The notes under the pieces are model-generated. The model ran no database searches and was not told where the DNA came from. It saw only the letters and a list, made by a program, of their open reading frames with translations. A DNA stretch of 64,000 nucleotides from Candidatus Eiseniibacteriota bacterium (lineage in GTDB: Bacteria > Orphanbacterota > Orphanbacteria > Orphanbacterales > Orphanbacteraceae): contig JAJCZU010000002.1 of NCBI GenBank assembly GCA_029262235.1, forward strand, positions 682,001-746,000. The letters are read 5' to 3'. Shown here piece by piece: positions 27,057-53,416 of this stretch. Position numbers and translations under genes: made by a program. Position 1 is the stretch's first letter; every line of letters begins with the position of its first letter.

Positions 27057-27440
27057 ATGACGAACAGTGAGCGCTGGGTCGTCTGGATGCTGGTATTTCT
27101 GCTCCTGCTGGGAGCCGCCGGCCGCCGACTCGATATCAGCAGGAACGGCACGCTTCCGTGGAGCGTCCCTGATACGACCGAAGCAGAACCGGCGCCGGAG
27201 GAAAGTGCGGAAACGCCCGCTCCCCTGGTGGTCGACTTGAACCGCTGCGATCGCGAAGAGCTGGAGACCCTGCCCGGGCTCGGGCCGTCGAAAGCCGCGG
27301 CCGTGATTGCGTGGCGCGAGGAGCAGGGACCGTTCGAAACGGTCGAGGGGCTGCTCGCGGTGCCCGGTATCGGGCCGAAGACGCTGGAAAGACTGAAACC
27401 GCACTTATCCCTGGAAAGGGAAGGGGACCGGGCGCCATGA
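27057..27440 (+). CDS. ComEA-like membrane-anchored helix-hairpin-helix protein
   Basis: 127 residues from ATG 27057, 6 nt after GAGGGAGG; an open frame reaches back to 26961 without a better start. One N-terminal membrane helix (WVVWMLVFLLLLGAAG) is followed by a Pro/Glu-rich linker and tandem helix-hairpin-helix motifs: DLNRCDREELETLPGLGPSK and EGLLAVPGIGPKTLERL. This is the architecture of ComEA, which binds incoming DNA in the periplasm during transformation. It directly precedes and overlaps pilB by 4 nt. With dprA at 62.5 kb, this supports natural competence driven by the type IV pilus. Confidence 0.8.
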   Translation: MTNSERWVVWMLVFLLLLGAAGRRLDISRNGTLPWSVPDTTEAEPAPEESAETPAPLVVDLNRCDREELETLPGLGPSKAAAVIAWREEQGPFETVEGLLAVPGIGPKTLERLKPHLSLEREGDRAP

Positions 27441-29125: not shown

Positions 29126-29155
29126 CTCGGCCGAACGCCACAAGGGGAACAGTTT

Positions 29156-30274
29156 ATGCCATCGCTACGCGGCCTTCTGGAAGAGATGCTCGAACGGAAC
29201 GCCTCCGATCTTCATGTATCAGCAGGACAGCCGGCCCAGCTTCGGATCGACGGATCGCTTACGGCGAGCCGGTCGGAGAATCTGACGTCGGAAATGACGA
29301 TGCAACTCGCGTACTCGATCCTGACCGAGGAGCAGAAGAAGCGCTTCGAGAACGACAAGGAACTCGATCTCGCGTTCGGGATTCAAGGGCTGTCGCGTTT
29401 TCGCGCGAACATCTATCAGCAACGCGGCGTCGTTTCGGTCGCCATTCGAAAGATTCCGTATCAGATCCTCTCGTTCGAGGAGCTCGGTCTTCCTCCGGTC
29501 GTGAAGGAGCTGGCCAAGAAGCAGAAGGGGTTGATTCTCGTCTGCGGGCCGACGGGTTCGGGGAAATCGACGACACTGGCTTCGATCATCGACAAGATCA
29601 ACCAGGAGCGCGCCTCCCATATCGTGACGGTCGAGGATCCGATCGAATACGTACACAAGCACAAGCAGTCCACGATCAACCAGCGCGAAGTGGGCGCGGA
29701 TACCGCGAGCTTCACGCAGGCGCTCAAATATGTACTGCGACAGGATCCGGACGTGATCCTGATCGGGGAAATGAGAGACCTGGAGACGATCCAGGCGGCG
29801 CTCACGATTGCGGAAACCGGGCACCTTGCGCTGGCAACGCTCCATACGAACTCCGCCGCGGAATCCATCAACCGTATCGTTGACGTGTTTCCCGCGGGTG
29901 TGAAAGCGCAGGTAGCGGCGCAGCTCGCGTTCGTGCTGCAGGGCGTGCTCTGTCAGCAGCTGCTGCCGAAATCGTACGGCGCGGGGCGCGTCATGTCGGC
30001 CGAGTGCCTGATCTGTACGCCGGCCATTCGGGCCGTGATCCGCGAAGGCAAGATTCACCAGGTTTACGGGATGATGCAGGCCGGGACGAAGTACGGCATG
30101 CAGACAATGAACCAGTCGCTCCTGCATCACGTGCAGCGACGCGCTCTGACTCGGGAGGCTGCTCTGGAATACAGCCCCGACACGACAGAATTCGAACAGA
30201 TGCTGGCACGCCCGACCGACGGGCCCGGCCAACGACCGCGACCGGGCGGTCGCCCCAAAGCGGGCAGCCGGTAA
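29156..30274 (+). CDS. pilT: Type IV pilus retraction ATPase PilT
   Basis: 372 residues. N-terminal PilT signature ASDLHVSAGQPAQLRIDG, Walker A GPTGSGKS at 131-138, Walker B GEMRDLETIQAALTIAETGH and the C-terminal AIRAVIREGKIHQVYGMMQA block (the AIRNLIRE-like motif needed for retraction). It lacks the zinc tetracysteine of PilB. It depolymerises pili for twitching motility and DNA uptake. The last ~15 residues are a Pro/Gly/Arg-rich tail beyond the usual end. The gene lies 30 nt after pilB and 15 nt before pilC. Confidence 0.96.
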   Translation: MPSLRGLLEEMLERNASDLHVSAGQPAQLRIDGSLTASRSENLTSEMTMQLAYSILTEEQKKRFENDKELDLAFGIQGLSRFRANIYQQRGVVSVAIRKIPYQILSFEELGLPPVVKELAKKQKGLILVCGPTGSGKSTTLASIIDKINQERASHIVTVEDPIEYVHKHKQSTINQREVGADTASFTQALKYVLRQDPDVILIGEMRDLETIQAALTIAETGHLALATLHTNSAAESINRIVDVFPAGVKAQVAAQLAFVLQGVLCQQLLPKSYGAGRVMSAECLICTPAIRAVIREGKIHQVYGMMQAGTKYGMQTMNQSLLHHVQRRALTREAALEYSPDTTEFEQMLARPTDGPGQRPRPGGRPKAGSR

Positions 30275-30289
30275 GAAGGGGGATACGAA

Positions 30290-31504
30290 GTGGCCGTCAC
30301 ATTCGCATGGCAGGGTAAGAACTCCGCGGGAGAAGCGGTCAGCGGTGAGCTGACCGTCGAAAACCGGAGTGAACTGCAAAGCATACTGAGGAAACGCCGC
30401 ATCATCACGTCATCCGTGACGGAGAAGCGCGTCAAGAAGGACAAGAAGAAGAAGGGCAAGATCGGCACGAAGGATCTCGCCATCTTCACACGGCAGTTCG
30501 CGACCATGATCAATGCCGGACTTCCGATCATTCAATGTCTGGACACGCTCGCGAAGCAGGTTACCAAAGAGAATTTCCGCGATGTGATTGCGGCTGTACA
30601 GAAAGACGTCGAATCGGGGTCCACGCTGGCCGAAGGGCTCGCGAAGCATAAGGAAGTCTTTCCCGACCTCTATGTGAGCATGGTGGAAGCGGGGGAACTC
30701 GGCGGGATCCTGGACGTCATTCTTCTGCGCCTCGCCACATTCCTGGAAAAGCTCGACGCGCTGAAGCGCAAAGTGCAGACGGCCATGATGTATCCCTCGG
30801 TCGTGCTCGTGATCGCGCTGCTCGCTACGAGCTTCCTGCTCATCTTCATTATTCCGACATTCGCCAGGCTGTTCTCGGACTTCGGCGGCGAGCTGCCGCT
30901 TCCGACGAAGATCGTCATGGTTCTGTCCGACTTCCTCCGCACGAAGTGGTTCCTGATCATCGGCGTCATCACGGGTGCGGTCTGGGCGTTCAAGAAGTAT
31001 CGAAAGACGGAGAAGGGCAAGTTCAAGACCGATCAGATCCTCCTGAACATGCCCGCGATCGGGGACATCGTCCGCAAGGCCGCCGTCGCGCGATTCACGC
31101 GGACGCTCGGAACTCTCATTTCGTCCGGGGTTCCGATTCTCGACGGTCTGAACATTACCGCCAAGACGTCGGGGAACCAGGTCGTGCACGACGCGATCAT
31201 GGCCACGCGCTCCAGTATTCGTGAAGGGCAGACGATCGCGGAACCGCTGCGCCACAGCGGCGTGTTCCCGCCCATGGTCGTGCAGATGATTTCGATCGGG
31301 GAGGACACGGGCGCGCTCGACAACATGCTCGAGAAGATCGCCGACTTCTATGAAGAGGAAGTGGATACGGCGGTCGACGGTCTCACGTCGATCATCGAAC
31401 CGATCATGATCGTGTTCATGGGGGGCATCGTCGGCACGATGGTGGTCGCCATGTACCTTCCGATCTTCAAGATGGTCAACGTCATCATGGCCGGGACCCA
31501 CTAA
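30290..31504 (+). CDS. pilC: Type IV pilus inner-membrane platform protein PilC
   Basis: 404 residues from GTG 30290. Two T2SSF domains are present (about 65-190 and 270-395). The first contains IFTRQFATMINAGLPIIQCL and the second VARFTRTLGTLISSGVPILD. Three membrane helices are visible (SVVLVIALLATSFLLIFIIP, WFLIIGVITGAVWAFKKY and the C-terminal IMIVFMGGIVGTMVVAMYLP). Early residues (FAWQGKNSAGEAVSGELTVE) match the canonical PilC/GspF start. It couples the PilB and PilT motors to pilin insertion. The pilS gene starts 11 nt later. Confidence 0.95.
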   Translation: MAVTFAWQGKNSAGEAVSGELTVENRSELQSILRKRRIITSSVTEKRVKKDKKKKGKIGTKDLAIFTRQFATMINAGLPIIQCLDTLAKQVTKENFRDVIAAVQKDVESGSTLAEGLAKHKEVFPDLYVSMVEAGELGGILDVILLRLATFLEKLDALKRKVQTAMMYPSVVLVIALLATSFLLIFIIPTFARLFSDFGGELPLPTKIVMVLSDFLRTKWFLIIGVITGAVWAFKKYRKTEKGKFKTDQILLNMPAIGDIVRKAAVARFTRTLGTLISSGVPILDGLNITAKTSGNQVVHDAIMATRSSIREGQTIAEPLRHSGVFPPMVVQMISIGEDTGALDNMLEKIADFYEEEVDTAVDGLTSIIEPIMIVFMGGIVGTMVVAMYLPIFKMVNVIMAGTH

Positions 31505-34886: not shown

Positions 34887-35315
34887 ATGAAGGGCAACCG
34901 AGGATTTACTCTGATCGAATTGATGATCGTCGTGGTCATCATCGGTATTCTTGCCGCGATCGCAATCCCGAACTTCCTGAGCATGCAGAGTCGTGCGAAA
35001 GAAGCCGGGGTCAAGGGCAACATGCATACGATTCAGCTCGCGTTTGAAGATTTCAACGTGCTGAGCGACGGTGTTTACCCGACGACGCTCGCCTCGACCA
35101 CGCCGGGCGGCGATGACATCACCGACCTGCTTCCGGGTGGCGCGTTCCCGAACAATCCGTTCACGGCTGCGGCTACGCCGTTCGCCTGGGGTGCGGCTGC
35201 TGCGGCTTCGGCCGGTGCCTGCGCTGCCACGGCAGCTTCGGTTTCGACTTACACCATTCAGGGACGCGGTGCCGATACGGCTGCGTACCTCTCGCTTAGC
35301 TTAAGCAACTCGTAA
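34887..35315 (+). CDS. pilA: Type IV major pilin, copy 1
   Basis: 142 residues. Type IVa prepilin: short leader MKGNRG, cleavage after Gly6, mature N-terminal Phe and Glu5 (residue 11), and the hydrophobic assembly helix [20 protein letters not shown]. The globular domain (about 110 residues) has an Ala-rich stretch and only one Cys, so there is no disulfide-bonded D-loop of the classic type. The C-terminus [20 protein letters not shown] closely parallels the next gene. It has its own sigma-54 promoter and is followed by a terminator, as expected for a strongly expressed structural subunit. Confidence 0.93.
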
Positions 35316-35327
35316 GTCACCTGAATC

Positions 35328-35366
35328 GAGCGCGGGTCCATCGAGGGCCCGCGCTCTTTCGTTTTC
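35328..35366 (+). terminator. Rho-independent terminator after the first pilin
   Basis: A perfect 9-bp stem GAGCGCGGG/CCCGCGCTC (35328-35336 with 35348-35356) with an 11-nt loop, followed by TTTCGTTTTC. It lies 13 nt after the first pilin stop and would limit readthrough into the second pilin gene. Confidence 0.85.
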
Positions 35367-35402
35367 AGCCGGAGAGACCAGCCGCACAGAGGCGAAAGCA
35401 TT

Positions 35403-35834
35403 ATGAAAGCCACGGAAAAAGGATTCACACTGATCGAACTCATGATCGTTGTCGTGATCATCGGGATTCTTGCGGCGATTGCGATTCCGAACATGGCAAA
35501 TATGACGGGACGGGCGAAGGAAGCGAGTGTGAAGGGGAACATGTACAACATTCAACTCGCATTCGAAGACTTCGGCGTACTGAGCGACGGGATCTATCCG
35601 GTAAGCGCAGCCGATGCGACGCCGTCCGGAGAAACGATCCTGGACCTCCTGAGCGGGGGATCGTTCCCCACGAACCCGTTCGACGGCAATGTAACGCCGT
35701 TCACCTGGAACGGTGCCGCCGCGGCCTCGGCCGGCGCGGTGGCCGCCACGGCAGCCACGGTCACGGGCTACACCCTGCAGGGACGCGGCGTGGACATCGC
35801 CAACTACCTGGGACTGAGTCTCACCAACGGATAA
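35403..35834 (+). CDS. Type IV pilin, copy 2 (tandem paralogue)
   Basis: 143 residues. Leader MKATEKG, cleavage after Gly7, mature [20 protein letters not shown] with Glu5 at residue 12. Strong similarity to copy 1 through the helix and in the pattern [20 protein letters not shown]...SDGIYP and YTLQGRGVDIANYLGLSLTN, but with a different mid-region and no cysteine. It lies between two terminators with no clear sigma-54 site of its own in the 87-nt gap, so expression would need readthrough or an unrecognised promoter. It could be an alternative major pilin or a recent duplicate under divergence. Confidence 0.92.
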   Translation: MKATEKGFTLIELMIVVVIIGILAAIAIPNMANMTGRAKEASVKGNMYNIQLAFEDFGVLSDGIYPVSAADATPSGETILDLLSGGSFPTNPFDGNVTPFTWNGAAAASAGAVAATAATVTGYTLQGRGVDIANYLGLSLTNG

Positions 35835-40037: not shown

Positions 40038-41393
40038 ATGAACGAACGGCGCATTCTGATTGTCGAAGACCGGCCGGCCACGCGGCGGATGCTGGAGGAG
40101 ACCCTCCAGGACGAAGGCTGGGATACGACGGGAATCGAAGACGGTGGCGATGCGGTCAAGCGTCTCCGGGAAGAGAGCTTCGACCTCGTCCTGACAGATC
40201 TGGAGCTGCCGGGGAAGGACGGCCTTCAGGTTCTCGCAGCGTGCCGTGAAAGCGATCCCCTGGCGCCGGTTATCGTCATGACCGCACACGGTACGGTGGA
40301 GACAGCCGTGGAAGCGATGAAGCGCGGCGCCTACGACTTCCTGACGAAACCCGTCGATACGGACCGCCTGCTCCTGCTCGTCGAGCGCGCAGCCGAACGC
40401 CGCTCGCTCGAGCTGAGGACCCGGGTGACCGAAGACAGCGCCCGCCCGCCGATCATCGCGGGTGAGAGCCCTGCCATCCAGAAGGTGCTGCGTCTCGCGG
40501 AGAAAGTGGCGCCCTCGGATTCTTCCGTGCTCATTCTCGGCGAAAGCGGTACAGGCAAAGAGCTCTTCGCCCGTTATATCCACAGCAAGAGCCGTCGCGC
40601 GAAAAACCAGCTCGTGGCGCTCAACTGTGCCGCGATTCCGCGCGAGCTGATCGAGTCCGAACTCTTCGGCGCGGAAAAGGGGTCGTATACGGGAGCCGAT
40701 CGGAGACGCCTCGGGAAGTTCGAACTCGCGAACAGCGGGACACTCTTCTTCGACGAAATCGGGGAACTGGAGCGGGATCTGCAGTCGAAGCTGCTTCGCG
40801 TTCTCGAAAATCGCGTGATCGAACGCGTGGGGGGATCGCGTTCGATTCGCGTGGACGTGCGCCTGATCACGGCCACGAACCAGAGTCTCGAACAGGAAGT
40901 GTCGGAAGGGCGCTTTCGCGACGACCTCTACTATCGCCTGAACGTATTTCCGATCCACCTTCCGCCGCTTCGCTTTCGTCGCGAAGATATCCCGATTCTC
41001 GCGGAGCATCTTCTCGCGGGTTTCTCGGTCGAGATGGGGCGCCCCGCACTCGGGCTGTCGCCGAAGGCACTCGCCGCGCTGCAGGAGTACGACTGGCCCG
41101 GCAACGTGCGCGAACTCAGAAACACGCTGGAACGCGCGGTGATTCTCACCGAAGGAAACGAAATCCCCGCGGAAGTGATCGCGGTGGGCGGAACGCACAA
41201 AGCCGCCCCCGCATCAGTCGCAAGCTATTCGGATCTCCATGCGGCCGTGCGCGATTCGACGCGGCGAACGGAGATCGATTGCATCAGTCGATCGCTCAAG
41301 GAGTGCGACGGAAACAAGAGTGAAGTCGCACGCCGGCTGAAGGTGAGCTACCGCTCTCTCTGGGCGAAGATCAAGGAGTATGAACTCGAATGA
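40038..41393 (+). CDS. Sigma-54-dependent NtrC-family response regulator (PilR2-like)
   Basis: 451 residues from ATG 40038 (GAGAGGAG just upstream; GTG 40032 is the alternative). Receiver with Asp54 in VLTDLELPGKDG, AAA+ domain with GESGTGKE, Walker B SGTLFFDEIGELE and [14 protein letters not shown], and a Fis-type C-terminal helix-turn-helix (GNKSEVARRLKVSYRSLWAK). The sigma-54 contact loop is GSYTGA; Tyr replaces the usual Phe, a tolerated but uncommon change. Paired with the kinase upstream and coupled to the next gene by a 4-nt overlap. Likely targets include the minor-pilin operon downstream, where sigma-54-like elements with 9-nt spacing are seen. Confidence 0.92.
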   Translation: MNERRILIVEDRPATRRMLEETLQDEGWDTTGIEDGGDAVKRLREESFDLVLTDLELPGKDGLQVLAACRESDPLAPVIVMTAHGTVETAVEAMKRGAYDFLTKPVDTDRLLLLVERAAERRSLELRTRVTEDSARPPIIAGESPAIQKVLRLAEKVAPSDSSVLILGESGTGKELFARYIHSKSRRAKNQLVALNCAAIPRELIESELFGAEKGSYTGADRRRLGKFELANSGTLFFDEIGELERDLQSKLLRVLENRVIERVGGSRSIRVDVRLITATNQSLEQEVSEGRFRDDLYYRLNVFPIHLPPLRFRREDIPILAEHLLAGFSVEMGRPALGLSPKALAALQEYDWPGNVRELRNTLERAVILTEGNEIPAEVIAVGGTHKAAPASVASYSDLHAAVRDSTRRTEIDCISRSLKECDGNKSEVARRLKVSYRSLWAKIKEYELE

Positions 41394-42760
41394 AACGCAT
41401 CCTGACGACCACCTTTCTCCTGCTTTGCAGCGGGGCGCTCGCGCCGGCCGCCGAGTGGGAAGTGCACCATCCGGACTCCGTCCTCGTCGGCGCATGGACC
41501 GTGCCTGTTTTCGCGCACGCGGATTCCGCGGCACGGGATCTCCGCGCGGTGCTCGCGACGAACACCGACACACTCGAGTTCGCATTCGTCTCGCTTCCTG
41601 CGGCGCCGGGGCGGGCGAGTTTCGGCCTGTATGTGGAAGAGCCGCTCCTGTTTCTGCAGGAGAAGGGAAACGTTTCGATTCGCGTCTTCGCAGGGTCGCG
41701 CCAGGAACCTGTTTACACAGGAAACATGCCGGTTACGGATCACCTCGCCAACTCGTGGATCCTTTCGATCGACGACGGCGGCCGCACGGTTCTCTGGGAG
41801 GGCGACGGGGCCGGCGGTCTGATCTCCATCGACACGCTGCCCGAAGACATTCTGCTCGAGGATGCGCTGCTGATTGAGAACGGGCTCGGCGGAGTCGACG
41901 TGGCGGCGGTGACGACGAGCGGCGAAATCGTGCTCTGGACATTGCGCGGCGAACTGGAAGAGAAGTTCCGCATTGCCATGGGCGGGCATGGCGCGTGCAT
42001 CGCGCCGCTTCCGGGACGCGACGACTTCCTTGTCGGCTTCGTGGACGGACGCATCTGCCTCGTCGATACGCACACGGAAGACGTGAAGACCGTGGCGTCC
42101 GTGCAGGGGATACCGACGAGTCTCGCTGTGGGTGATGGCGCCGGGGACATCGAAGAAGATCTGATCGTGACGGTTCTCGAGATGAGTCGTTCGACCCTGG
42201 TCTGCTTTCGGGGACAGCCGGACGGCTACTGGGGAGACCCGGAACCGACCGAGAGCGCGCTGCCGTCCATGGGGCGACAGGTGATCTTCGCGGACCTCGA
42301 CGCGGGCGGGAAAGAAGAACTGCTGCTGCTGCTCGATGGCGGGCGTGCTCTGCTTTCCGCCGTCATGCTCTGGGGAATCGAAGGGACCTATGCGATCCCC
42401 GAAAACCTCGACCTCGCCGGCGTCGGTGACCGGCCGCTTCATCATCTCTTCAAAGGCGACTGGAATGCGGACGGCCGTGTCGATGTCGGCGTCGTGCACG
42501 GATCGGGCGAAAGCGTGCTGGAACTCTTCGTCCAGAACGCGGGAGACGCGCGTTCGTTCTCGGCCGTGGACATCCTGCCCGTGGGGGGGGCCGAAGTCGG
42601 CATCGTGGTGGCGGATCTCGACAGAAACGGCGCTTCGGACATCATCGTGGCTGAGGGGAACTTCGGAGTCTGGCTGAACGACGGGCGCGGACGCCTCTAT
42701 CGACATCCGAGTCCGCCGCGGGGACGCCCGGCGCGTCTCTTTGCGATCGCGGCCCATTGA
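41390..42760 (+). CDS. Secreted FG-GAP/VCBS-type repeat protein upstream of minor pilins
   Basis: 456 residues. Signal peptide MKRILTTTFLLLCSGALAPA. The body is a beta-propeller-like repeat protein: blades with Asp-rich turns such as DLDAGGKEELLLLLDG, DWNADGRVDVGVVHGSGES and DLDRNGASDIIVAEGNFG resemble FG-GAP/VCBS calcium-binding loops (DxDxNGxxD). It overlaps the response regulator gene by 4 nt and is 182 nt before the minor pilins. In many type IV pilus loci a propeller-bearing PilY1 tip protein is encoded with the minor pilins. This protein lacks a von Willebrand A domain and is shorter, so a PilY1-like role is only a hypothesis. Confidence 0.6.
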   Translation: MKRILTTTFLLLCSGALAPAAEWEVHHPDSVLVGAWTVPVFAHADSAARDLRAVLATNTDTLEFAFVSLPAAPGRASFGLYVEEPLLFLQEKGNVSIRVFAGSRQEPVYTGNMPVTDHLANSWILSIDDGGRTVLWEGDGAGGLISIDTLPEDILLEDALLIENGLGGVDVAAVTTSGEIVLWTLRGELEEKFRIAMGGHGACIAPLPGRDDFLVGFVDGRICLVDTHTEDVKTVASVQGIPTSLAVGDGAGDIEEDLIVTVLEMSRSTLVCFRGQPDGYWGDPEPTESALPSMGRQVIFADLDAGGKEELLLLLDGGRALLSAVMLWGIEGTYAIPENLDLAGVGDRPLHHLFKGDWNADGRVDVGVVHGSGESVLELFVQNAGDARSFSAVDILPVGGAEVGIVVADLDRNGASDIIVAEGNFGVWLNDGRGRLYRHPSPPRGRPARLFAIAAH

Positions 42761-42942: not shown

Positions 42943-43398
42943 ATGAAACGGCTCTTACAAAAACAGGACGGGTTCTCTCTCGTCGAACTCATGGTGGCCA
43001 TGGTCGTCATGAGCGTCGGATTTCTTGCCATGAGTCACATCTTCATGGCGGCGATGGAGCACTCGAAGCAGGGGAAGCACGATATGGCGGCCCTGACTCT
43101 CGCCAACGAGATCCTCGAACGCGTTCGCGCGACGCCCTACGAACAGGTGTACGCCACGTATGACGGGATGACCACGACGAACGTCGCCACGATTCCCGCA
43201 GCCGCCCGGAACTGGGCGACGCATGCCGCGAACGAGCTGCCGCACGGCGATTTCGACGTAAACGTTTATAAGAACGGCCAGAAATCCTACATCACGGAGA
43301 ACGGCATTCTGGAAGTGGAAGTTCTTGCTTCATGGCAGGAGCGGGGAAACACGCGGTCGATGCGTACGAGTACCTTCATTGTCCGCATGGGAAGCTAG
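42943..43398 (+). CDS. Type IV pilus minor pilin, PilV-like
   Basis: 151 residues from ATG 42943 (GAGGAG about 8 nt upstream); an open frame extends upstream without a pilin start. Prepilin leader MKRLLQKQDG, cleavage after Gly10, mature FSLVELMVAMVVMSVGFLAM with Glu5 at residue 15. EHSKQGKHDMAALTLANEIL and ERVRATPYEQV are typical of PilV/GspI-type proteins, which cap or prime pilus assembly. First gene of a four-gene minor-pilin operon; its stop is 7 nt from the next start. Confidence 0.88.
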   Translation: MKRLLQKQDGFSLVELMVAMVVMSVGFLAMSHIFMAAMEHSKQGKHDMAALTLANEILERVRATPYEQVYATYDGMTTTNVATIPAAARNWATHAANELPHGDFDVNVYKNGQKSYITENGILEVEVLASWQERGNTRSMRTSTFIVRMGS

Positions 43399-43405: not shown

Positions 43406-44956
43406 ATGATGACGAACACTTTACGAAATGAACGTGGTTCGGCGCTTATCCTGGCGCTGCTCGTCCTGACGGGAATCTCCCTGTTCGGAATCAGTCTCGC
43501 GCTGACCACGATCACCGACAGAAACATCGCGAAGTTCGACCGCGAGAGCATGGAGGCGCTTCATGCCGCGGAATCCGGAATCGCGCGGGCCAAGCGGGCG
43601 ATCCAGGACAGGGGCGTCACGTTCGGTGACGCGGACGGAGACGGACTGCCCGACTTTCAGATGACGGACTCGCTCTCCTGGGGCGGGGCGTTCGAGGTCT
43701 TCGGCGAGTCGGATATCCCGAGCTCGGGATCTGCCGGCGGCTACGCGGCCGATATCATTCGCATCACGGCAGTGGGACGATCCAAAGGCGCCTATCGCTC
43801 CGTGCTGTCTGAAATTCGTCACGATTCGTTCCTGAAATACGCGCGCTTCGTGCAGGCCACCGGCGTCAGCTACGGCTGCGGAGCCGTGCTCTCGGGAGAG
43901 GTGTATTCCGGCGGAACGATCGGGCTTCCGAGTGGTTGCAGTTCGACGGAGAAAGTAACGTTTCTCGAGATGGTGGCCGCGGTCAGCGGCATTTCGAATC
44001 TCTCCGAAGGAATCTTTCACAAGGGATACAACGACTCCGCCACAGTGGTCGATCTGCAGGCGTCCGTCGACTTCGATCTGATCCGTGAAAAGGCGGACGG
44101 AAGCTGTGCGGAATGCGAGTGCGACGGCTTCGGGCGCAAAGGCATCTACATGGACGACGATCCTCTCGGAATCGGAACGAACGGCACGATCAACCTCTCG
44201 CTCTTCGACTTCCAGTTCGAGGATCCGGGGTCGGGCGATACGGTCGTAACCTACAACGGCGCGTTCGTGATGGATCCCACCACGGGGAACCCGCTTCTGC
44301 GGGACGATTACAACGGCATCATCTTCTTCGAAGGCGATGGCTTCGTGCGCGGAACCTCAGACGGTGTCGGAGGACGCGCGCTCACGATCTGGGCCACCGA
44401 CGACATCTTCGTCGAAGGGGACATCATCACGGGGTACACGGGGTTCGATCCCGTGACGCGCCTTCCGGACGGCACAGGCTTCCCGGTCAATATCGGTCTC
44501 GTCGCGAGTGACTACATCTACATCGGTGCCGTCAATCGTATCGCGCAGATCGACGCCGTACTGATGGCCGTCAACTCGAACTGGCGTGTCTGGGACACGG
44601 CGCTTGCCGCGCATCCTCCCGCGCCGATCGGGAACTACGACCTGGACCAGGACGGCATCGTCGGGGAATCGCCCGTGAACCACGACCCGAATGTCGGAAC
44701 AGGCTGGGACGAGGTCATCACCGCAGGCAATCGCAACGACACCTGGGTCCTGAATATCAACGGACCCATCATTACCTACGACGGGGGGAGCGCGTACCCG
44801 TGGAACGCCGGTTCGGTACTGTCCGCCGCGACGGGCCCGACGCGCCGTTACAACTACGACCTCGACGTAACCGACTATCCGCCGCCCTGCTTCCCGGTGC
44901 CGCTCAATCTCTGGGTGGACCACGCATGGGCCGAGATCTACGACGTGGAGAACTAG
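43406..44956 (+). CDS. Oversized PilX-type minor pilin
   Basis: 516 residues; start ATG 43406 or 43409, both after GAGGA. The N-terminus MTNTLRNERG then SALILALLVLTGISLFGISL has the PilX form: Gly before the cleavage site, no Glu5, and ITDRNIAKFDRESMEALHAA downstream as in PilX/GspK-like proteins. PilX proteins are usually under 250 residues; here about 350 extra residues follow. These include a Cys-rich patch (CAECECDGFGRKG) and Asp/Gly-rich beta segments (FEGDGFVRGTSDGVGGRALT, YDLDQDGIVGES). It may be a pilus-tip component or adhesive extension. Stop and next start are separated by 2 nt. Confidence 0.75.
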   Translation: MMTNTLRNERGSALILALLVLTGISLFGISLALTTITDRNIAKFDRESMEALHAAESGIARAKRAIQDRGVTFGDADGDGLPDFQMTDSLSWGGAFEVFGESDIPSSGSAGGYAADIIRITAVGRSKGAYRSVLSEIRHDSFLKYARFVQATGVSYGCGAVLSGEVYSGGTIGLPSGCSSTEKVTFLEMVAAVSGISNLSEGIFHKGYNDSATVVDLQASVDFDLIREKADGSCAECECDGFGRKGIYMDDDPLGIGTNGTINLSLFDFQFEDPGSGDTVVTYNGAFVMDPTTGNPLLRDDYNGIIFFEGDGFVRGTSDGVGGRALTIWATDDIFVEGDIITGYTGFDPVTRLPDGTGFPVNIGLVASDYIYIGAVNRIAQIDAVLMAVNSNWRVWDTALAAHPPAPIGNYDLDQDGIVGESPVNHDPNVGTGWDEVITAGNRNDTWVLNINGPIITYDGGSAYPWNAGSVLSAATGPTRRYNYDLDVTDYPPPCFPVPLNLWVDHAWAEIYDVEN

Positions 44957-44958
44957 CC

Positions 44959-45441
44959 ATGAAGAGATGGAATCAATCGGGATTCAGTGCCGTCGAGCTC
45001 ATGGTGGTCGTGACCATTTTCGGGATCACGGCCGTCGCTCTCGCGCCGGGATTCTCGCGCAGCTGGAAGCGTTCGGCGCTCGATTCGAACGCGATCAAAA
45101 TGGAAACGGCCATGAAGCTCTGCCGTCAGAAGGCAATCATGAACCGGCGGCCGTACAGGCTCATCATGGATCCCTCGGACCATACGTTCTATTCGATGCG
45201 TCGCGACTCGGGCGGTGTCTGGGTCATGGATCCGCCGGAAACGACATTCATCAAGGACCAGATCAACTTTATCTCGCGCGGCGACAACCACGACCTGTTC
45301 TTCGAGACACGGGGCACGGTGGCGGCGAGTGACTCGCCGGCGGAAGTCCGGTTCTTCAACGACCGCGGCGAAACGCTCGCGATCAATCTGGTTCGTACGG
45401 GACGGATCCGCGTGGTGCGGACTGCCGGCCCGTCATCCTAG
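44959..45441 (+). CDS. Type IV pilus minor pilin, FimT/GspH-like
   Basis: 160 residues from ATG 44959; the open frame upstream overlaps the PilX-like gene and is not used. Leader MKRWNQSG, cleavage after Gly8, mature FSAVELMVVVTIFGITAVAL with Glu5 at residue 13. The following pattern (NAIKMETAMKLCRQKAIMNR...YRLIMDPSDHTFYSMRRD) is the FimT/GspH/FimU class, in which an early helix carries R.KA..N. FimT has been shown to bind DNA in competent bacteria, which fits the ComEA-like and DprA genes here, but binding residues were not identified. Confidence 0.85.
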   Translation: MKRWNQSGFSAVELMVVVTIFGITAVALAPGFSRSWKRSALDSNAIKMETAMKLCRQKAIMNRRPYRLIMDPSDHTFYSMRRDSGGVWVMDPPETTFIKDQINFISRGDNHDLFFETRGTVAASDSPAEVRFFNDRGETLAINLVRTGRIRVVRTAGPSS

Positions 45442-45453: not shown

Positions 45454-48294
45454 ATGCAGCGGACACGAGGATTTACATTAGTGGAACTGGCGATCGGCCT
45501 CTTCATCCTGGGGGTCGTGGGGACGGTTGCGTACCAGATCATGCACCGTACGACGAACACGTACAAGCTGCATCGCGACGTCACCGAGACTACCCAGAAC
45601 GCGCGTCTGGCGATGGAAACGATCACGACGGATCTGCGGCAGGTAAGCTACGGAAAAGACGTGACGCAGGCGTCGATCGTGCACGCGAGCCTCGACTCGA
45701 TCGTGTTCATCGCCGACTTTTACGACTCGATTCCCGGCGCCGAAACCGTGGCGCTCTATCTGACGGCGCATCTCGATTCGGGGACGCGAAATCCGTCCGA
45801 CAGGCTTGTTTACCGGGCCGTGAGTGATACGAGTGGTTCTGTGATCGAAGAGGGTCCTGTCGCATACGGCGTGGCCGACTCCGGGCTTACGTTCCTGTAC
45901 TTCGATCGGGATGGCGCCGCAATGTCGTTCCCGATCGTGCAGCCGGAACATATCGCGGAGATCGAAATCGCCGTGACGACCCAGACCGCACACTATGAGC
46001 AGGGGATCGGGTATCGGGATGTCACGCTGACGAATATCGTGTACCCGCGCAACCTCCCGTTCTCGCCGCCCCGCGCGCGGCCGAACAGCCCCGGGTGCGT
46101 CTCACTCACGTCACCGAACTGCGGGTCGCTGACCGCGAAATGGACGCGGCCGACTTCGAACACGGACGGCAGTGAGCTCAAGTTCAACGACGTCAGTCAT
46201 TTCACGGTGTACTACGGAACTCACCCCGACTCCATGAAGATGGATACACGCCTTGCGCGTAATCTGGACGAATGGACGGTGAAGGATCTCACCGCGGGGA
46301 ACACGTACCGGATCGCCGTTACCGTGACTACGCAGGCCGGGATCGAAAGCGAAGCGTGCCTGCAGATCGGGGCCGTCGGTACGACTGCGCCCCCGAAGGC
46401 ACCGGGCGGCTTCTCCGGGCTCGGAGGACCGAGCGGCATGAATCTGTCCTGGAGCCCCGTCACGCAGGACTCCGCGAATGTCGCGATCACGGCCCAGGTT
46501 CTCTATGACCTGTATCGGTCGACATCGCCCGTCTTCCCGCTCGACGGGACGACCGAGGTCGTGAACGGCTGGATCGACAGCACGTACTTCGATGCCATTA
46601 TCGATACCTGCAATACCTACTACTACGCGGTGCGTGCCCGCGCGTGCGGAGTCAACGGGATCCCGTCAACGGTGATCGGCGTCTCGACCGCTCCGCCGCC
46701 GAGCTGCCCTTCCGCGGTGGACGCATACGAAGGCACGCTCTCGGGCAACATCACGGTCACGTGGTCGCCGCCGACTACGCGTGCCGACGGCAGCCCTCTC
46801 ACGACGGGGGAGATCAAGGGTTTCTATGTCTACTGGTCGCTGACCTCGGGCTCCTACACGGACTCTGTGTACGTCTCAGGCGGGACGTCGAATCTGCACG
46901 ACCTGCTCGGCCTCGCGTTCTGCCAGACATTCTACGCGAACGTGCGCGCCGTGGATCAGTGCGGAAACACCGGTTCTGTCTGCGTCAATCTCGAAGGCGT
47001 GGCGCGTACGAAGGCGCCCTGTAACGCGCTCCCGCCTCAGCCCGTTTCGAATGTTGCGGTAGTCGGCGGCTCCGAGAGAGTCGACATCACGTTCAATCCG
47101 AACACGTTCGACTGCGATCTCGACGGTTACTACATCTACTACGGGACCAGCTCGGGCGATCTCTTCGGCACCGGCGCCACGCAGGGCCCGTCGCCGATCT
47201 ATGTCGATGCCGCGTCCGTTCAGCTCGACACGAGCAATGCGGCGTATTCGCTGACCGGTCTCTCGGCCTGTCTCGAGTACTTCATTACGATCACGTCTGT
47301 CGACAACTGTTCTCCCGCGAATCAGAGTTCGTACAGTACCGAAGAGAGCGACTTCGTTCTCTGCACGAGTTGTGACCTGTCGAAGGGGTGCGTCACGGAA
47401 GTGGCGGAGGGGAACTTCCAGGAACGCCTCGTCTTTGATGTGGCGAACGATGCCGGCTCGGACGTACTCGTGGATGAGATGGAGATTACCTGGACGAGCG
47501 GCGTCCAACTCGTCGAGATCCTCGTCGAGAACATCTCGCTCTGGACCGGTACCGGAAATTCGGGCGACAACTTCGACGTCACGGATTTCCTCCTGTACGA
47601 TTTCGAGAACTTCGACTATCCCGTGCCGATGACGCTGGTGTTCACCGGGTCAATCAACGGTGACATGGTAGACGTCAGCTACAGCACGGATCAGGGGCAG
47701 TGCACGCTCGAATTGAACCCGTGCGGCATCATGTTTGCCGACGCAATCAACTACGGCGACCAGAACGGCGTGCCCGGCTGGACTCCGCGAACGGGGAGCT
47801 GGGAAGTGGACGGCAACGCCATGTACAACGGCGAAGACGGCCGCATTACGCCCGATGCCTTCGGGTTCGCGAACACCGACTACACGGCGGAGATGGACGT
47901 GCGCGGCAACAGCGGGCGTTCGAACGCGCGCGTGGGGCTGTATGTGCGCTACCAGGACACCGGGAATTACTATCTGGTCCGCTACTACCCGAACCTGGGG
48001 ACGCTCCAGTTCCTGAAGAAGGTCGGGAGCGGTTCCCTGATCACGATCGAGGATACCTACATTGGCAGCCTCGTGACGAACGGATGGGTCAATATCAAGA
48101 TCTCGGCTCTCGGGTCGCAGTTCCGTGTGTGGATCGATGGAGCGATCATAGACTGGCCTGGAACGGGCACCGTGATCGCCGACGGGTCGCTGCCGACCGG
48201 GAATATCTGCACCTACGCCTGGAACGTGGACGACGCCTGGTTCGACAACGCAAGAGTAGACCCCACATGTGGTTGCGGGGGTATCATCCCGTAA
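45454..48294 (+). CDS. Giant PilW-type minor pilin fused to FN3 domains and a lectin-like C-terminus
   Basis: 946 residues from ATG 45454 (GGAGG eight nt upstream; GTG 45451 is the alternative). Prepilin leader MQRTRG, cleavage after Gly6, mature FTLVELAIGLFILGVVGTVA with Glu5 at residue 11, then a PilW/PilJ-like domain to about 205 (NARLAMETITTDLRQVSYG). About four fibronectin type III-like domains follow (about 215-630; e.g. TAKWTRPTSNTDGSELK, GMNLSWSPVTQD, NITVTWSPP, YYIYYGTSSGDL), rich in paired Cys. A linker beta domain (640-755) precedes a ConA-like/LamG or DUF1080-type domain (about 759-946) with YTAEMDVRG, GLYVRYQDTGNYYLVRY and GSQFRVWIDG. PilW is normally 200-350 residues. Likely a pilus-tip adhesin. 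Confidence 0.85.
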   Translation: MQRTRGFTLVELAIGLFILGVVGTVAYQIMHRTTNTYKLHRDVTETTQNARLAMETITTDLRQVSYGKDVTQASIVHASLDSIVFIADFYDSIPGAETVALYLTAHLDSGTRNPSDRLVYRAVSDTSGSVIEEGPVAYGVADSGLTFLYFDRDGAAMSFPIVQPEHIAEIEIAVTTQTAHYEQGIGYRDVTLTNIVYPRNLPFSPPRARPNSPGCVSLTSPNCGSLTAKWTRPTSNTDGSELKFNDVSHFTVYYGTHPDSMKMDTRLARNLDEWTVKDLTAGNTYRIAVTVTTQAGIESEACLQIGAVGTTAPPKAPGGFSGLGGPSGMNLSWSPVTQDSANVAITAQVLYDLYRSTSPVFPLDGTTEVVNGWIDSTYFDAIIDTCNTYYYAVRARACGVNGIPSTVIGVSTAPPPSCPSAVDAYEGTLSGNITVTWSPPTTRADGSPLTTGEIKGFYVYWSLTSGSYTDSVYVSGGTSNLHDLLGLAFCQTFYANVRAVDQCGNTGSVCVNLEGVARTKAPCNALPPQPVSNVAVVGGSERVDITFNPNTFDCDLDGYYIYYGTSSGDLFGTGATQGPSPIYVDAASVQLDTSNAAYSLTGLSACLEYFITITSVDNCSPANQSSYSTEESDFVLCTSCDLSKGCVTEVAEGNFQERLVFDVANDAGSDVLVDEMEITWTSGVQLVEILVENISLWTGTGNSGDNFDVTDFLLYDFENFDYPVPMTLVFTGSINGDMVDVSYSTDQGQCTLELNPCGIMFADAINYGDQNGVPGWTPRTGSWEVDGNAMYNGEDGRITPDAFGFANTDYTAEMDVRGNSGRSNARVGLYVRYQDTGNYYLVRYYPNLGTLQFLKKVGSGSLITIEDTYIGSLVTNGWVNIKISALGSQFRVWIDGAIIDWPGTGTVIADGSLPTGNICTYAWNVDDAWFDNARVDPTCGCGGIIP

Positions 48295-48309
48295 GATCTG
48301 AGGACCTTT

Positions 48310-48395
48310 CACAAGAAGAGCGGTCCCTTCGCCCCGTTCGCCCTGGCTGAACCAGCCAATGGGGCTCAGGGGCTTCGGGACCGCATCTTCTTGTG
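48310..48395 (+). terminator. Long imperfect hairpin after the PilW fusion gene
   Basis: Arms CACAAGAAGAGCGGTCCC (48310-48327) and GGGACCGCATCTTCTTGTG (48377-48395) pair along 18 positions with one bulged base. Inside, CCCC/GGGG and a small TGGCTG-AAC-CAGCCA hairpin extend the structure. It starts 15 nt after the pilin stop. No T-tract follows, so it may stabilise mRNA ends or act as a Rho-type or processing signal rather than a simple intrinsic terminator. Immediately downstream CGGGGC-TGC-GCCCCG (48406-48420) forms a second perfect hairpin. Confidence 0.6.
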
Positions 48396-48935: not shown

Positions 48936-49985
48936 ATGGGACTATTCGACACCTTCATGAGAAGCGACCCTACGGTAGTGGGGATCGATATCGGTAGCCA
49001 CGCCATCAAGGTCGTGGAGGTCTCACGCAAAGGGGACCGCGCTACGGTTTCGAACTATGGAGTCGGCTACCTGCCGCCCGACGCGATCGTCGACGGCGAG
49101 GTGATGGACTCCGAGATCGTAGTCGAGTGCATTCAGGACCTGCTGAACGAACGGGGCATCTCCGGAAAGAACGTCGCTTCGGCGATCTCCGGACGCTCGG
49201 TCATCGTAAAGCGGATCCAGATGGATCGGATGAGCGAGGAAGAAGCCGCCGACGCTATTTACTGGGAGGCGGAACAGCACGTCCCCTACGGCATCGACGA
49301 AATTTCTCTCGATTATCAGATTCTCGGGGACAGCGAAGAAGAAGGGAAGATGGACGTTCTGCTCGTCGCGGCGAAACGCGAGACGGTGGAAATGCACACG
49401 GCCCTGCTTCGCGACGCCGGCCTTACGCCGTACGTCGTGGATGTTGATTCTTTCGCCGTTCAAAACTCGTTCGAAGCGAACTACGAGTCCGAAGAGGGAG
49501 AACGCGTTCTCCTGCTGAACGTGGGCGCGTCCGTTACGAACGTCAATCTGCTGAGCAACGGAGCGCCGCTGATCACGCGTGACCTTTCGGTCGCGGGCAG
49601 CGCGTTCGCAGACGAAGTGCAGCGGACGCTCGAAGTCGACCGGGAAGAGGCGCTCAAGATCATTCAGAGCGACTCCGAGGAAGACCAGGAACGGATCTCT
49701 CCGATCCTGGAGACGGTCGGGCAGGATCTGCTGCTCGGCATCGAACGCTCTCTTTCGTATCTCAAGGGGAATTCGGGTGCGAGCGACGTCAGTCGCGCCA
49801 TCCTTTCCGGCGGCGGTTCGTGCCTGGCGGGACTCCAGTCCTACCTCTCGACACGCCTCGGGATTCCCGTCGATATCGCCAATCCGCTGAAGGAGATCGA
49901 GTACGACCCGAATCTCTTCGCGGATATGGAAGTGGATCGAATCGGCCCGTCGCTGATGGTGGCGCTGGGCCTGGCGCTCCGGTGA
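48936..49985 (+). CDS. pilM: Type IV pilus alignment protein PilM
   Basis: 349 residues from ATG 48936; the frame is open upstream across the repeat region, but family similarity begins at MGLFDTFMRSDPTVVGIDIG. The actin-like ATPase fold shows phosphate-1 loop VVGIDIGSHAIKVVEV (about 14-29), LNVGASVTNVNLLSNG and the C-terminal LSGGGSCLAGLQSYLSTRLG. In known systems PilM is a cytoplasmic ring component binding the PilN N-terminus (INLIP). First gene of pilM-N-O-P-Q, all within a few nt of each other. Confidence 0.93.
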   Translation: MGLFDTFMRSDPTVVGIDIGSHAIKVVEVSRKGDRATVSNYGVGYLPPDAIVDGEVMDSEIVVECIQDLLNERGISGKNVASAISGRSVIVKRIQMDRMSEEEAADAIYWEAEQHVPYGIDEISLDYQILGDSEEEGKMDVLLVAAKRETVEMHTALLRDAGLTPYVVDVDSFAVQNSFEANYESEEGERVLLLNVGASVTNVNLLSNGAPLITRDLSVAGSAFADEVQRTLEVDREEALKIIQSDSEEDQERISPILETVGQDLLLGIERSLSYLKGNSGASDVSRAILSGGGSCLAGLQSYLSTRLGIPVDIANPLKEIEYDPNLFADMEVDRIGPSLMVALGLALR

Positions 49986-49992
49986 GGATGAC

Positions 49993-50616
49993 ATGATTCG
50001 TATCAATCTCATTCCCGTGGAAGAAAGAATCGTAACGACCACCTCCGGTCCGAACTGGACGGTGATCGCAGTGACTGTGGCGCCGGTGGTCTTCGGACTG
50101 ATCCTGTTCACGGTGTTCATGTATCAGAACCATCAGCTCACGATGCTGACGGAACAGATCAACCAGGAAGAGTCGACGCTGGCAAAGTACAAACCGGCGG
50201 TCGCGAAACTGAAGCAGCTCCGTGAAGAACAGACGGAGATTCAGGCTCGCCTCGACGCTCTTCACGAGATCGATGAATACCGCGCGCTTCCGGTTCAGAT
50301 GATGGAAGCCGTGAACCGCAGCGTACCCCGCTACCTCTGGCTGGAAACGGTCGAGGAGACGGGCGGGGGCGGTGTCGAGCTCAAGATTACAGGCAGCACG
50401 TTCTCGAACCTGATCGTGTCGGACTTCCTGGATCGACTGGAAGACTCGCACATGTTCGTGGTTCCGGAACTCAATATTGCCGAAGAGAAGAAGATCGGAC
50501 AGACGAAGGTCGTGAACTTCACGCTCATCGCACGCGGCGATCCGAATGCCGACGACACGAGTGGCGACGTCAGCACGGCAAGCCTCGCCGAGATCGGAGA
50601 GATCCATGAATATTAA
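49993..50616 (+). CDS. pilN: Type IV pilus assembly protein PilN
   Basis: 207 residues. The cytoplasmic N-terminus MIRINLIPVEER carries the INLxP motif that docks onto PilM. One membrane helix (VIAVTVAPVVFGLILFTVFM), a coiled coil (LTEQINQEESTLAKYKPAVAK to RLDALHEI) and a periplasmic ferredoxin-like domain (LETVEETGGGGVELKITGST) follow. It is one of the inner-membrane alignment complex proteins and pairs with PilO. The stop overlaps the pilO start by 11 nt. Confidence 0.92.
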   Translation: MIRINLIPVEERIVTTTSGPNWTVIAVTVAPVVFGLILFTVFMYQNHQLTMLTEQINQEESTLAKYKPAVAKLKQLREEQTEIQARLDALHEIDEYRALPVQMMEAVNRSVPRYLWLETVEETGGGGVELKITGSTFSNLIVSDFLDRLEDSHMFVVPELNIAEEKKIGQTKVVNFTLIARGDPNADDTSGDVSTASLAEIGEIHEY

Positions 50617-51343
50617 GATGCCAGATATCAACTTTCGCGATACGAAAGTGCAGATTGCGGCGGTCGGGATCTTTCTCTTCCTGGGCGTGAACTATCTGTA
50701 CTTCTTCTCGAGCTACCTGCCGTTCTTCTATCAGCCCAAGAAGGTGGAAGTGCAGCAGCAGGAAGAGCGGTATCGCAAGCTCGCGATCGAAGTCGCCGAA
50801 GCGAAGCGCGCTTCGGAAGACCTTCGCAAGCTTGAAAAGGAACTGGTGGCCCTCCACAAGGAATGGGAGATCGCTCTCGCGTCCCTGCCGGAGAAGAGAG
50901 AGATCGCCTCGCTGCTGCGCCGCGTCACGCTGGCGGGTGAGCGTTCGGGGATCCGCTTTCAGTTATTCGAACCGCAGACTGTCGTGTATCACGGCGTGTA
51001 CGACGAACATCCTGTGAACGTCAAAGTCGAAGGAGGGTTCCACGAGATCGGAACGTTCTTCGGCCGCTTGAACAACATGGATCGTGTCGTGCACGTGTCG
51101 AACATATCCCTGGAAGGGGAGCGGAACGACGAAGACGCAAGCGTCGTCCGCGGCGAGATGCAGATCTCGGCTTTTACGGTTCCTTCGGCCCCCGCCGCTG
51201 ATGCGGAAGGGGATGCAACGGTCGGCTCATCGCCGTCCGGTGCGAGTGCGAAGGTGGCTGCGAAGGCCGGTCAATCCGGTAACACCCGAGTCAAAGGGAA
51301 GACGAATGGTAGAACGGCTTCGACACACGATTCAGACGAATAA
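50606..51343 (+). CDS. pilO: Type IV pilus assembly protein PilO
   Basis: 245 residues from ATG 50606, inside the end of pilN. Membrane helix VQIAAVGIFLFLGVNYLYFF, then a long coiled coil (QQQEERYRKLAIEVAEAKRA, DLRKLEKELVALHKEWEIAL) and the PilO ferredoxin-like domain (GIRFQLFEPQ, VKVEGGFHEIGTFFGRLNNM). The last ~45 residues are an extra Ala/Ser/Gly/Lys-rich low-complexity tail, part of which overlaps pilP in another frame. Forms the PilN-PilO periplasmic heterodimer in known systems. Confidence 0.9.
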   Translation: MNIKMPDINFRDTKVQIAAVGIFLFLGVNYLYFFSSYLPFFYQPKKVEVQQQEERYRKLAIEVAEAKRASEDLRKLEKELVALHKEWEIALASLPEKREIASLLRRVTLAGERSGIRFQLFEPQTVVYHGVYDEHPVNVKVEGGFHEIGTFFGRLNNMDRVVHVSNISLEGERNDEDASVVRGEMQISAFTVPSAPAADAEGDATVGSSPSGASAKVAAKAGQSGNTRVKGKTNGRTASTHDSDE

Positions 51344-52112
51344 GCGCGCCGTACTGATCGGAAGCGTGCTTGTCGTCGGCTTGTTGGCGCTGCTCGCATT
51401 CCGGGGCGGGACGCTGTTCCAGGCCGCAGGCGACGCCGGTTCTTCCGTCGTCGGCAAGGTGGTCGGTTCTGTCGCGTACAAGGACAAAGCGCCGGCCCCG
51501 GCATCGAGCACCGAACCGAACCAGCAGGCGGCCGTCGCCAGCTCCGGCAAGAAGGCCGTCGCCAGCTCCGGCCAGGCGGGTGAGGAGATGCCGCGGGGCT
51601 ACCTCGACCCGAGGGCGGCGGATGACGCACGGGAAGAAGCACGACTCGCAGCCGAAGCGAGGTCCGGTATGACGGAGCCCGCGCCGGCCGAGGGGCGTGC
51701 GGGAGTCACCGTCATTGCGGAGCAGAGTGCCACGGAAGAGCTTCCGGAAGTCACGCTGCAGCAGCCGGAAGAGGAAACCGAGAACATGCGACCGCACTAC
51801 GAACCGTATCGTTCGTACGGGTTGCGTGATCCGATGGTTCCCCTCGTGATCGCCGGCAAGACGGACGCTTCGGATTCCCGATTCAGTATTTACAACCTGG
51901 CTCTTGTCGGAATTGCCTGGAAGAGCGGCGATCGTGTCGCGCTGCTCGAGGACAAGAAGGGCAAGAGCTACCTGTACCGCAAAGGCGACCTGATTTCTGA
52001 CGGCGCCCGCGTAGTCGAGATCGGCAAAGATACGATTACGTTCGCGGTCGTCAAATATGGTGAAACCACTCGCTTCACATTGAAGGTGGTTACGAAAGAG
52101 GAGGAGAACTAA
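51306..52112 (+). CDS. pilP: Type IV pilus PilP-like protein, membrane-anchored form
   Basis: 268 residues from ATG 51306 (GGAAG upstream), overlapping pilO by 38 nt. Typical PilP is a lipoprotein, but this one has no lipobox and instead a single membrane helix (RAVLIGSVLVVGLLALLAF, about 14-32). A Pro/Ala/Glu-rich linker includes the repeat AVASSGKKAVASSG. The C-terminal ~90 residues (YGLRDPMVPLVIAGKTD, YNLALVGIAWKSGDRVALLE, GDLISDGARVVEIGKDTITF) form the PilP beta-sandwich that contacts the secretin N0 domain. Assignment rests on this domain and on position between pilO and pilQ. Confidence 0.85.
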   Translation: MVERLRHTIQTNKRAVLIGSVLVVGLLALLAFRGGTLFQAAGDAGSSVVGKVVGSVAYKDKAPAPASSTEPNQQAAVASSGKKAVASSGQAGEEMPRGYLDPRAADDAREEARLAAEARSGMTEPAPAEGRAGVTVIAEQSATEELPEVTLQQPEEETENMRPHYEPYRSYGLRDPMVPLVIAGKTDASDSRFSIYNLALVGIAWKSGDRVALLEDKKGKSYLYRKGDLISDGARVVEIGKDTITFAVVKYGETTRFTLKVVTKEEEN

Positions 52113-53416
52113 TGATGACTCGTACCATGCCCCGGCTGAGGCGTGGCATGAGGGGCTTGCGCAGTCTTGTTGCGCTCGCAATCCTCCTGACCGCGTCGCC
52201 CGCCTTCTGTGAAGAGGAGAGCATCTCGCTCGACGTACAGCAGGCAGACATTCTGACGATCCTCCGGACGATCTCCGATCTGTCCGGCAAGAATATCGTT
52301 CCCGGTCCCGAAGTGAAGGGGAACGTGACGGTCCGCGTCGTGGATGTGCCATGGCCGAGCGCCCTCGATGTGGTGCTGAAGGCACACGGATACGGCTGGA
52401 AATACGATATGTCCGGCATCATTCGTGTCACCACGATTTCGTCGCTCCAGAACGAAGACCTCGAACGCGAAGCCGCGGAACGGAAGAAGGAAGATCTGCT
52501 TCCTCTCGTGACGCGGATGTACGCGATCAACTTCGCCAAGGCCGAAGAGCTGAAGCCCACGATGGAAACGGTTCTGTCGAAGCGCGGGGAAGTCGAATTC
52601 GACGAACGAACCAATTCGATCATTATCAAAGACATTGAGCAGAATATCGAGAGGGCGGAGGAACTGATCCACCGCCTCGATAAGATCACGCAGCAGGTGG
52701 AGATCGTGGCCAAGCTCGTCGACATGGACGCGCAGGTCTCCCAGGAGCTCGGGATCAACTGGATGGCGTCGGAGCTGAACAACGACGGGATCGACGCTGT
52801 GGCGTCGGGCGGTGTCGATGCTCCGATCGCAACCCCGATCGGTACGTTCAATGTCGGTACGGCCGGTCCCGGCGGCAACCTCGACGCGACGCTGCAGGCG
52901 CTCGCATCGGAAAACAAAGCCGAGATCATTTCGAACCCGCGCATCACGACCCTCGACAATCAGGAAGCAACGATTCTCGTGGGGCAGAAGATTCCGCTCA
53001 TCGTCTCGGATCCGTCGGGGAACCCGATTACCGAGCTCACGACGATCGGGATTCAGATGCGCGTCATCCCGCACGTTCACACGGACGGTAACATCACGCT
53101 CGAACTGCACCCGGAAGTGAGTGATCTCTCTTCGCAGGCTACCGTGCAGGGCGGCATCATCATTGTGACGAGTGAAGCGAATACCCGCGTCATGGTGAAG
53201 AGCGGACATACAGCCGTTATCGGGGGACTCGTTCGCAAGAACGTCTCCGAAACGGTCTCCGGCGTGCCCCTCCTGAGAGACATTCCTCTCTTCGGGCACC
53301 TCTTCAAATCGACGACGAACGTGGAGCAGCAGCGTGAACTGCTGATCTTCGTGACGCCGACGATCATCGATGTGGAAAGCGTTTCGCAGGTTACGGAAAC
53401 TTCGGAGGCTCAATAA
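52112..53416 (+). CDS. pilQ: Type IV pilus secretin PilQ (short form)
   Basis: 434 residues with signal peptide (LRSLVALAILLTASPAFC). N0/STN domain at about 35-110 (ISLDVQQADILTILRTISDL, GNVTVRVVDVPWPSALDVVL), an N1/KH-type domain (about 130-200, LVTRMYAINFAKAEELKPTM) and the secretin core (about 215-425) with VGQKIPLIV, the signature VPLLRDIPLFGHLF and ELLIFVTPTII. Many PilQ proteins have extra N-terminal AMIN domains and 700-900 residues; none is present here, so peptidoglycan anchoring must be provided by another protein. The start shares one base with the pilP stop (TAATG). Confidence 0.93.
   Translation: MMTRTMPRLRRGMRGLRSLVALAILLTASPAFCEEESISLDVQQADILTILRTISDLSGKNIVPGPEVKGNVTVRVVDVPWPSALDVVLKAHGYGWKYDMSGIIRVTTISSLQNEDLEREAAERKKEDLLPLVTRMYAINFAKAEELKPTMETVLSKRGEVEFDERTNSIIIKDIEQNIERAEELIHRLDKITQQVEIVAKLVDMDAQVSQELGINWMASELNNDGIDAVASGGVDAPIATPIGTFNVGTAGPGGNLDATLQALASENKAEIISNPRITTLDNQEATILVGQKIPLIVSDPSGNPITELTTIGIQMRVIPHVHTDGNITLELHPEVSDLSSQATVQGGIIIVTSEANTRVMVKSGHTAVIGGLVRKNVSETVSGVPLLRDIPLFGHLFKSTTNVEQQRELLIFVTPTIIDVESVSQVTETSEAQ

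Follow-up and report, generated by a model that had tools for sequence, protein, structure and literature searches.

A candidate tip adhesin built as a modular minor prepilin with four FN3 domains, a prepilin-associated domain and a ConA/CBM66-like C-terminus

Introduction

Tip adhesion of diderm type IV pili (T4P) is usually explained by PilY1. Modular pilins, in which further domains follow an N-terminal pilin module, were catalogued in 2021 by Raynaud et al., who reported more than 1,200 proteins in 264 architectures; the FN3 entry IPR003961 is among the 15 most frequent modular-pilin architectures (PMC8179133). A lectin case is PilC of S. sanguinis, a minor pilin whose ConA-like lectin module binds glycans. 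It has been solved and tested, and a tip position and a role in glycan adhesion were proposed for it (PMC9934059). PilB of S. sanguinis has an effector module grafted onto a minor pilin and was likewise proposed to sit at the tip (PMC8179133). The complex of the minor pilins H, I, J and K caps the T4P (PMC9934059). Outside the pilus field, members of the carbohydrate-binding family CBM66 bind fructan ends or modified xanthan, a bacterial exopolysaccharide (PMC11002231).

The gene described here (45454..48294, + strand) encodes a 946-aa modular minor prepilin, J/PilW-type by gene position, which consists of a pilin module, four FN3 domains, a domain that we call X and a ConA/CBM66-like C-terminal module. 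Like PilC of S. sanguinis (PMC9934059) it joins an N-terminal pilin module to a C-terminal ConA-like lectin, but the host of PilC is monoderm and PilC is described without an FN3 array or X between pilin and lectin. The likeness is one of architecture, and the lectin is tested in PilC and predicted here. The order N_methyl then FN3 is shared with the published FN3 modular pilins (PMC8179133); the difference is that four FN3 domains, X and a ConA-like end are found here together on a J-type minor pilin, as a phylum-wide feature. PilB shares the grafting of an effector module onto a minor pilin with a proposed tip position; its module, however, is a protein-binding vWA domain and not a lectin (PMC8179133). 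The presumed role, to present an adhesive module on the complex of minor pilins, is the one filled in diderm T4P by the PilY1/PilC tip adhesin (PF05567), whereas the PF05567 propeller is absent from the 946-aa protein and from the seven genomes of the lineage. By profile, the C-terminus resembles over about 160 residues the CBM66 module of the SacC levanase, a family that also includes a Cohnella xanthanase module (PMC11002231), but the carrier is a pilin here and a glycoside hydrolase there.

An earlier note on this DNA, made from the sequence alone, had regarded the fusion as a distinct solution for pilus adhesion. This cannot be maintained, as papers of 2021 to 2023 had already described modular pilins, among them FN3 and ConA-lectin types (PMC8179133, PMC9934059), and our survey found large minor pilins, several of them with FN3 arrays, in unrelated families. 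A literature search for PilW with FN3 found nothing, and the four-part architecture was not found described as a phylum-wide feature. The principle is known; the four-part combination and the X domain appear undescribed.

The type IV pilus locus and the modular pilin gene

The window (the whole stretch of 64,000 nucleotides that was analysed) contains a complete T4P locus, in which the features listed below, from pilB to pilQ, lie on the + strand. pilB (27173-29122), pilT (29126-30271) and a pilC-like platform gene (30275-31501) form the block 27173..31501; the two ATPases match PF00437 (at G000:C2:709962 and 711165) and the pilC-like gene was assigned by sequence only. Two major-type pilins (34887..35834) match N_methyl with E values of 4.9e-10 and 4.2e-9. 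Two sensor/regulator pairs are also part of the locus, and the one recognised prepilin peptidase is encoded on a different contig of the genome. The minor-pilin genes are headed by a gene for a secreted FG-GAP beta-propeller protein (41390..42760; PF13517, E 8.2e-14), which may be a pilus-tip partner. It is followed by a PilV-type (I) minor pilin (42943..43398; TIGR02523, 52.6 bits, above the cut-off of 52.2), a PilX-type (K) minor pilin of about 516 aa (43406..44956; PilX_N, E 2.7e-5, just below the cut-off) and a FimU/GspH-type (H) minor pilin (44953..45441; N_methyl above the cut-off, TIGR01708 E 3.4e-8 and below it). Since the PilX-type subunit has no Glu5, as in K subunits, the minor-pilin set resembles the H-I-J-K complex. 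The PilX-type pilin is unusually large, and with 63-73% identity across genera it is more conserved than the fusion protein.

The 946-aa gene begins 12 bases past the FimU-type gene and lies between the other three minor pilins and pilM, pilN, pilO, pilP and pilQ (48936..53416; the first three recognised by Pfam and the last two by sequence, in a conserved order). The PilV-, PilX- and FimU-type genes directly upstream, in conserved order, place it at the position of the J subunit. Gene position and weak profile similarity are what suggest the J/PilW-type label. The gspJ model matched at E 9.5e-4 with 19.0 bits, far below its cut-off of 64.85, the Verru_Chthon C model at E 1.9e-6, also far below its cut-off, and the Pfam PilW model gave no match at E <= 1. 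The PilW-like domain of the earlier note is thus backed by gene position and not by the PilW/GspJ models, all of which fell short of their cut-offs or gave no match.

The reading frame runs uninterrupted for 946 codons from the ATG at 45454 to the stop codon at 48292-48294, with zero internal stops and an alternative GTG start at 45451. It starts with a class III prepilin leader (45454..45471), MQRTRG|FTLVE, for which cleavage after Gly6 is predicted. Pfam N_methyl (PF07963) scores 27.1 bits against a cut-off of 21.2 (E 2.8e-6). It was concluded that the earlier description as one 946-residue protein with a canonical leader, cut after Gly6 to leave Glu5 in the mature form, was right. No homopolymer run of six or more equal bases was found within 45454-48294, and phase variation via a homopolymer tract was rejected on this count. 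The gene is separated from pilM by a 640-base gap (48295-48935), which exceeds the gap of relatives. Two repeats are found in it, one direct (40 bases) and one inverted (20 bases), and it may be a decayed or inserted element.

The pilin module (residues 7-204; 45472..46065) contains no cysteines and is similar in alignments to minor pilins of many families. Four FN3 domains follow, as the earlier note had proposed: three stretches were detected by PF00041 (E 4.9e-12, 46.3 bits, cut-off 25) and the second repeat by a family profile. FN3-1 (residues about 205-312; 46066..46389) contains the PF00041 stretch 213-298. FN3-2 (about 313-414; 46390..46695) is the weakest by sequence and becomes visible with the family profile only, by matches to the solved FN3 chains 3mpc (profile 345-409, E 0.002) and contactin-2 (310-505, E 0.046). 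FN3-3 (about 415-522; 46696..47019) resembles FN3-1 and has an Ig_RIMBP2 match at 415-461, and FN3-4 (about 523-636; 47020..47361), among the PF00041 stretches, is conserved in all homologues. The cysteines that the earlier note had remarked on all lie outside the pilin module. The protein has 21, of which 20 are invariant across six homologues, enough for up to ten disulfide bonds in a stalk that is exported.

X (residues 637-757; 47362..47724) is a separate domain of about 110-125 residues between FN3-4 and the ConA-like module that the earlier note had missed. No model in Pfam or NCBIfam matches it.

The predicted lectin module and its function

The C-terminal module (residues 758-946; 47725..48291) was described earlier as a ConA-like domain of LamG or DUF1080 type. 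A six-sequence profile of the module matches 4b1l/4azz, which we take to be the CBM66 of the B. subtilis SacC (the structure table itself reads LEVANASE), with an E value of 1.7e-9 over about 160 residues (profile positions 14-174 of 187). The ConA-like fold assignment thus agrees with a whole-module similarity to CBM66. The second half of the description holds in part: PF06439 (DUF1080 family) matches five of six homologues and one homologue also matches Laminin_G_3, but the protein itself scores below the PF06439 cut-off (E 0.0026, 18.3 bits against 26.8). The last residues of the protein are the invariant motif PTCGCGG. AlphaFold with single-sequence input returned a mean pLDDT of 32.5 for residues 608-946, too low for the model to be informative. 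Outside the lineage, the module has its closest copies on secreted proteins; the two best belong to pectate-lyase-like enzymes of one genome (G058). With relatives on secreted proteins, and with fructan ends or modified xanthan as ligands of CBM66 members, binding to a polysaccharide is what one would expect, and we infer that the C-terminal module binds a glycan.

The gene is present at the matching place in all seven genomes of the lineage (one family, five genera). In GTDB, 'Ca. Femapiota' goes under the placeholder name JABDJQ01 (PMC11382960), and we infer that the lineage corresponds to this phylum. Gene order from a TPR gene to a Big_1 gene is identical throughout, within reach of the contigs. 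The earlier note had named an internal stop or frameshift in other assemblies of the species as a sign against the fusion. The nearest copy, from the same genus and 96% identical (JABDJQ010000442.1), is intact up to the contig end that cuts the gene. Among wider homologues, four copies from other genera are full-length and intact (48-61% identity), whereas in G005 a small deletion at the pilin-FN3 junction splits the gene (L037:9031-9100). An unrelated FN3-type minor-pilin gene in G213 (L127:1490-1530) also changes frame at this junction or close to it, where a short tandem duplication is found. The two splits may reflect strain polymorphism, phase variation or assembly error.

PilY1 (PF05567) was found neither in the 946-aa protein nor in any of the seven lineage genomes. 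The same search detected PilY1 in 43 of the 290 sampled genomes, which served as the positive control because the named control genomes contain essentially no PilY1, and a PilY1 hidden elsewhere in the lineage genomes was rejected on the result of this search. The proposal of the earlier note, an adhesin carried on a minor pilin instead of on PilY1, fits this distribution.

We consider it fairly probable that the 946-aa protein is a glycan-binding modular minor pilin of a retractable type IVa pilus, located at the tip and doing the adhesive job of PilY1. The tip location is suggested by analogy to the HIJK model and to S. sanguinis PilB and PilC. Prepilin peptidase would cleave the N-terminal pilin module, which would then pack with the PilV-, PilX- and FimU-type subunits into a complex that starts and caps the pilus. 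The four FN3 domains, presumably disulfide-stabilised, and X would make up a stalk; as the fibre grows, this stalk would be threaded through PilQ and bring the ConA/CBM66-like module to the outside. Binding of this module to polysaccharide would let PilB/PilT cycles attach and pull, and the 946-aa pilin would in this way assume the adhesive part of the role of PilY1. As its gene is split at the pilin-FN3 junction, the G005 cell may manage without the fusion. If the model is true, expression of one domain of about 190 residues would give direct experimental access to the ligand in an uncultured phylum.

A sub-case of this reading, with a different ligand, is that the lectin binds the exopolysaccharide (EPS) of the cell itself or of its neighbours for aggregation or for movement over EPS. 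T4P in Myxococcus use EPS as an anchor. Within CBM66 there is a module whose ligand, modified xanthan, is a bacterial exopolysaccharide (PMC11002231). Self and foreign glycans are equally compatible with the present evidence, however, and we regard EPS as a possible but not a probable ligand.

In another explanation the FN3-X-lectin part serves assembly or docking: it would prime the pilus in the stead of PilY1, or it would hold a secreted protein such as the FG-GAP propeller, which would then be the real adhesin. The neighbouring FG-GAP protein is a second adhesin candidate and counts against a lectin adhesin. Its gene stands at the head of the minor-pilin genes and is syntenic in every lineage genome with the locus, six other lineages have a large PilW-type pilin with fused FG-GAP repeats (L072, L076, L078, L080, L081 and L086), and CofB of enterotoxigenic E. 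coli, the carrier of CofJ, is a precedent (PMC8179133). A CBM66-like module would be an odd choice for protein docking, though; FG-GAP repeats are common, gene neighbourhood is weak evidence, and the FN3-type PilW proteins of other families have no FG-GAP. We consider docking unlikely. Least of all do we expect an enzyme, a DUF1080 or 3-keto-disaccharide hydrolase domain carried on the pilus, in spite of the PF06439 matches in the homologues (best E 1.6e-5), because the protein itself stays below the cut-off of that family (the hydrolase name was rejected as the primary one on this ground), the profile prefers CBM66 to the putative glycosyl hydrolase 4jqt (E 0.59, 35 residues only), and PF06439 also matches modules joined to separate catalytic domains.

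Related large pilins in other lineages

The pilin-module profile was searched against 290 genomes, mostly one per family, and J-like prepilins were found in 101 of them; many of these have no PilY1 match. Outside the lineage, 18 genomes contain open frames of more than 800 codons with a J-like pilin module. Pfam scanning of 19 such large proteins detected FN3 arrays in three (L079, L082 and L084). The six with FG-GAP repeats named above also contain SdrD_B/CarboxypepD_reg-type domains; others contain Calx-beta or Big domains, and several have no domain recognisable by Pfam. Large modular minor pilins occur in many unrelated families. Three ConA-like-looking stretches in a 1798-aa pilin (L074) were supported neither by hhalign (probability 2.6%) nor by Pfam and were dropped. 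PilY1 above the cut-off was present in none of the 18 J-positive genomes with a large J pilin and in 11 of the 76 without one; mutual exclusion of the two was not accepted, the difference being a trend only (Fisher p 0.12).

The X domain was found in some of these proteins. The lineage X profile matched L084 by hhalign at E 1.5e-5. Leave-one-out X profiles scored 37.9 bits for L084, 19.8 for L077, 15.2 for L082 (little above its best shuffle of 12.9) and 9.7 against 4.9 for L079; X in L075 was rejected with 1.1 bits, under the shuffles. A profile of X alone, searched against the 290 genomes, matched nine genomes outside the lineage, four of which had been members of the profile. All five independent matches are prepilins or lie within a prepilin locus: X is found on GspG-like proteins with N_methyl in L102 and L103, in about four tandem copies on PilX/MshP-like proteins in pilin clusters in L128 and L129, and in L127 (G213) in an FN3-X frame that follows directly on a PilW-like frame. 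The sample is limited and the two weakest of the matches have E values of about 1e-5; X, which is Ig-like in look, may also blend into broader families. Judged from these matches X would be a prepilin-associated domain, for which no description was found, and it provides a sequence handle for finding more pilus-displayed proteins.

We put forward tentatively, and with some doubt, a wider interpretation. A diderm T4P lineage would have given up PilY1, with the J-type pilin as its tip adhesin. FN3, as a disulfide-stabilised stalk, and the prepilin-specific X would carry an exchangeable effector, which in 'Ca. Femapiota' would be a CBM66-like lectin and in other lineages a different end, and X would mark a pilus-displayed class missed by current libraries. 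Should adhesion indeed be performed by large J-type pilins, the adhesin would be covalently part of the pilus and its end module would be swapped by domain shuffling. One genome, G277 (L082), has a locus syntenic with that of the window, including the Big_1 gene after pilQ. Its PilW-type pilin contains FN3 and X and has a different C-terminal region, which is expected if the end is an exchangeable effector.

In the window, the gene directly after pilQ (53419-56724) encodes a putative lipoprotein of 1101 aa with seven Big_1 (invasin-like) domains. This gene is conserved in the lineage, and the G277 homologue is found in the matching place (L082:17126-19864).
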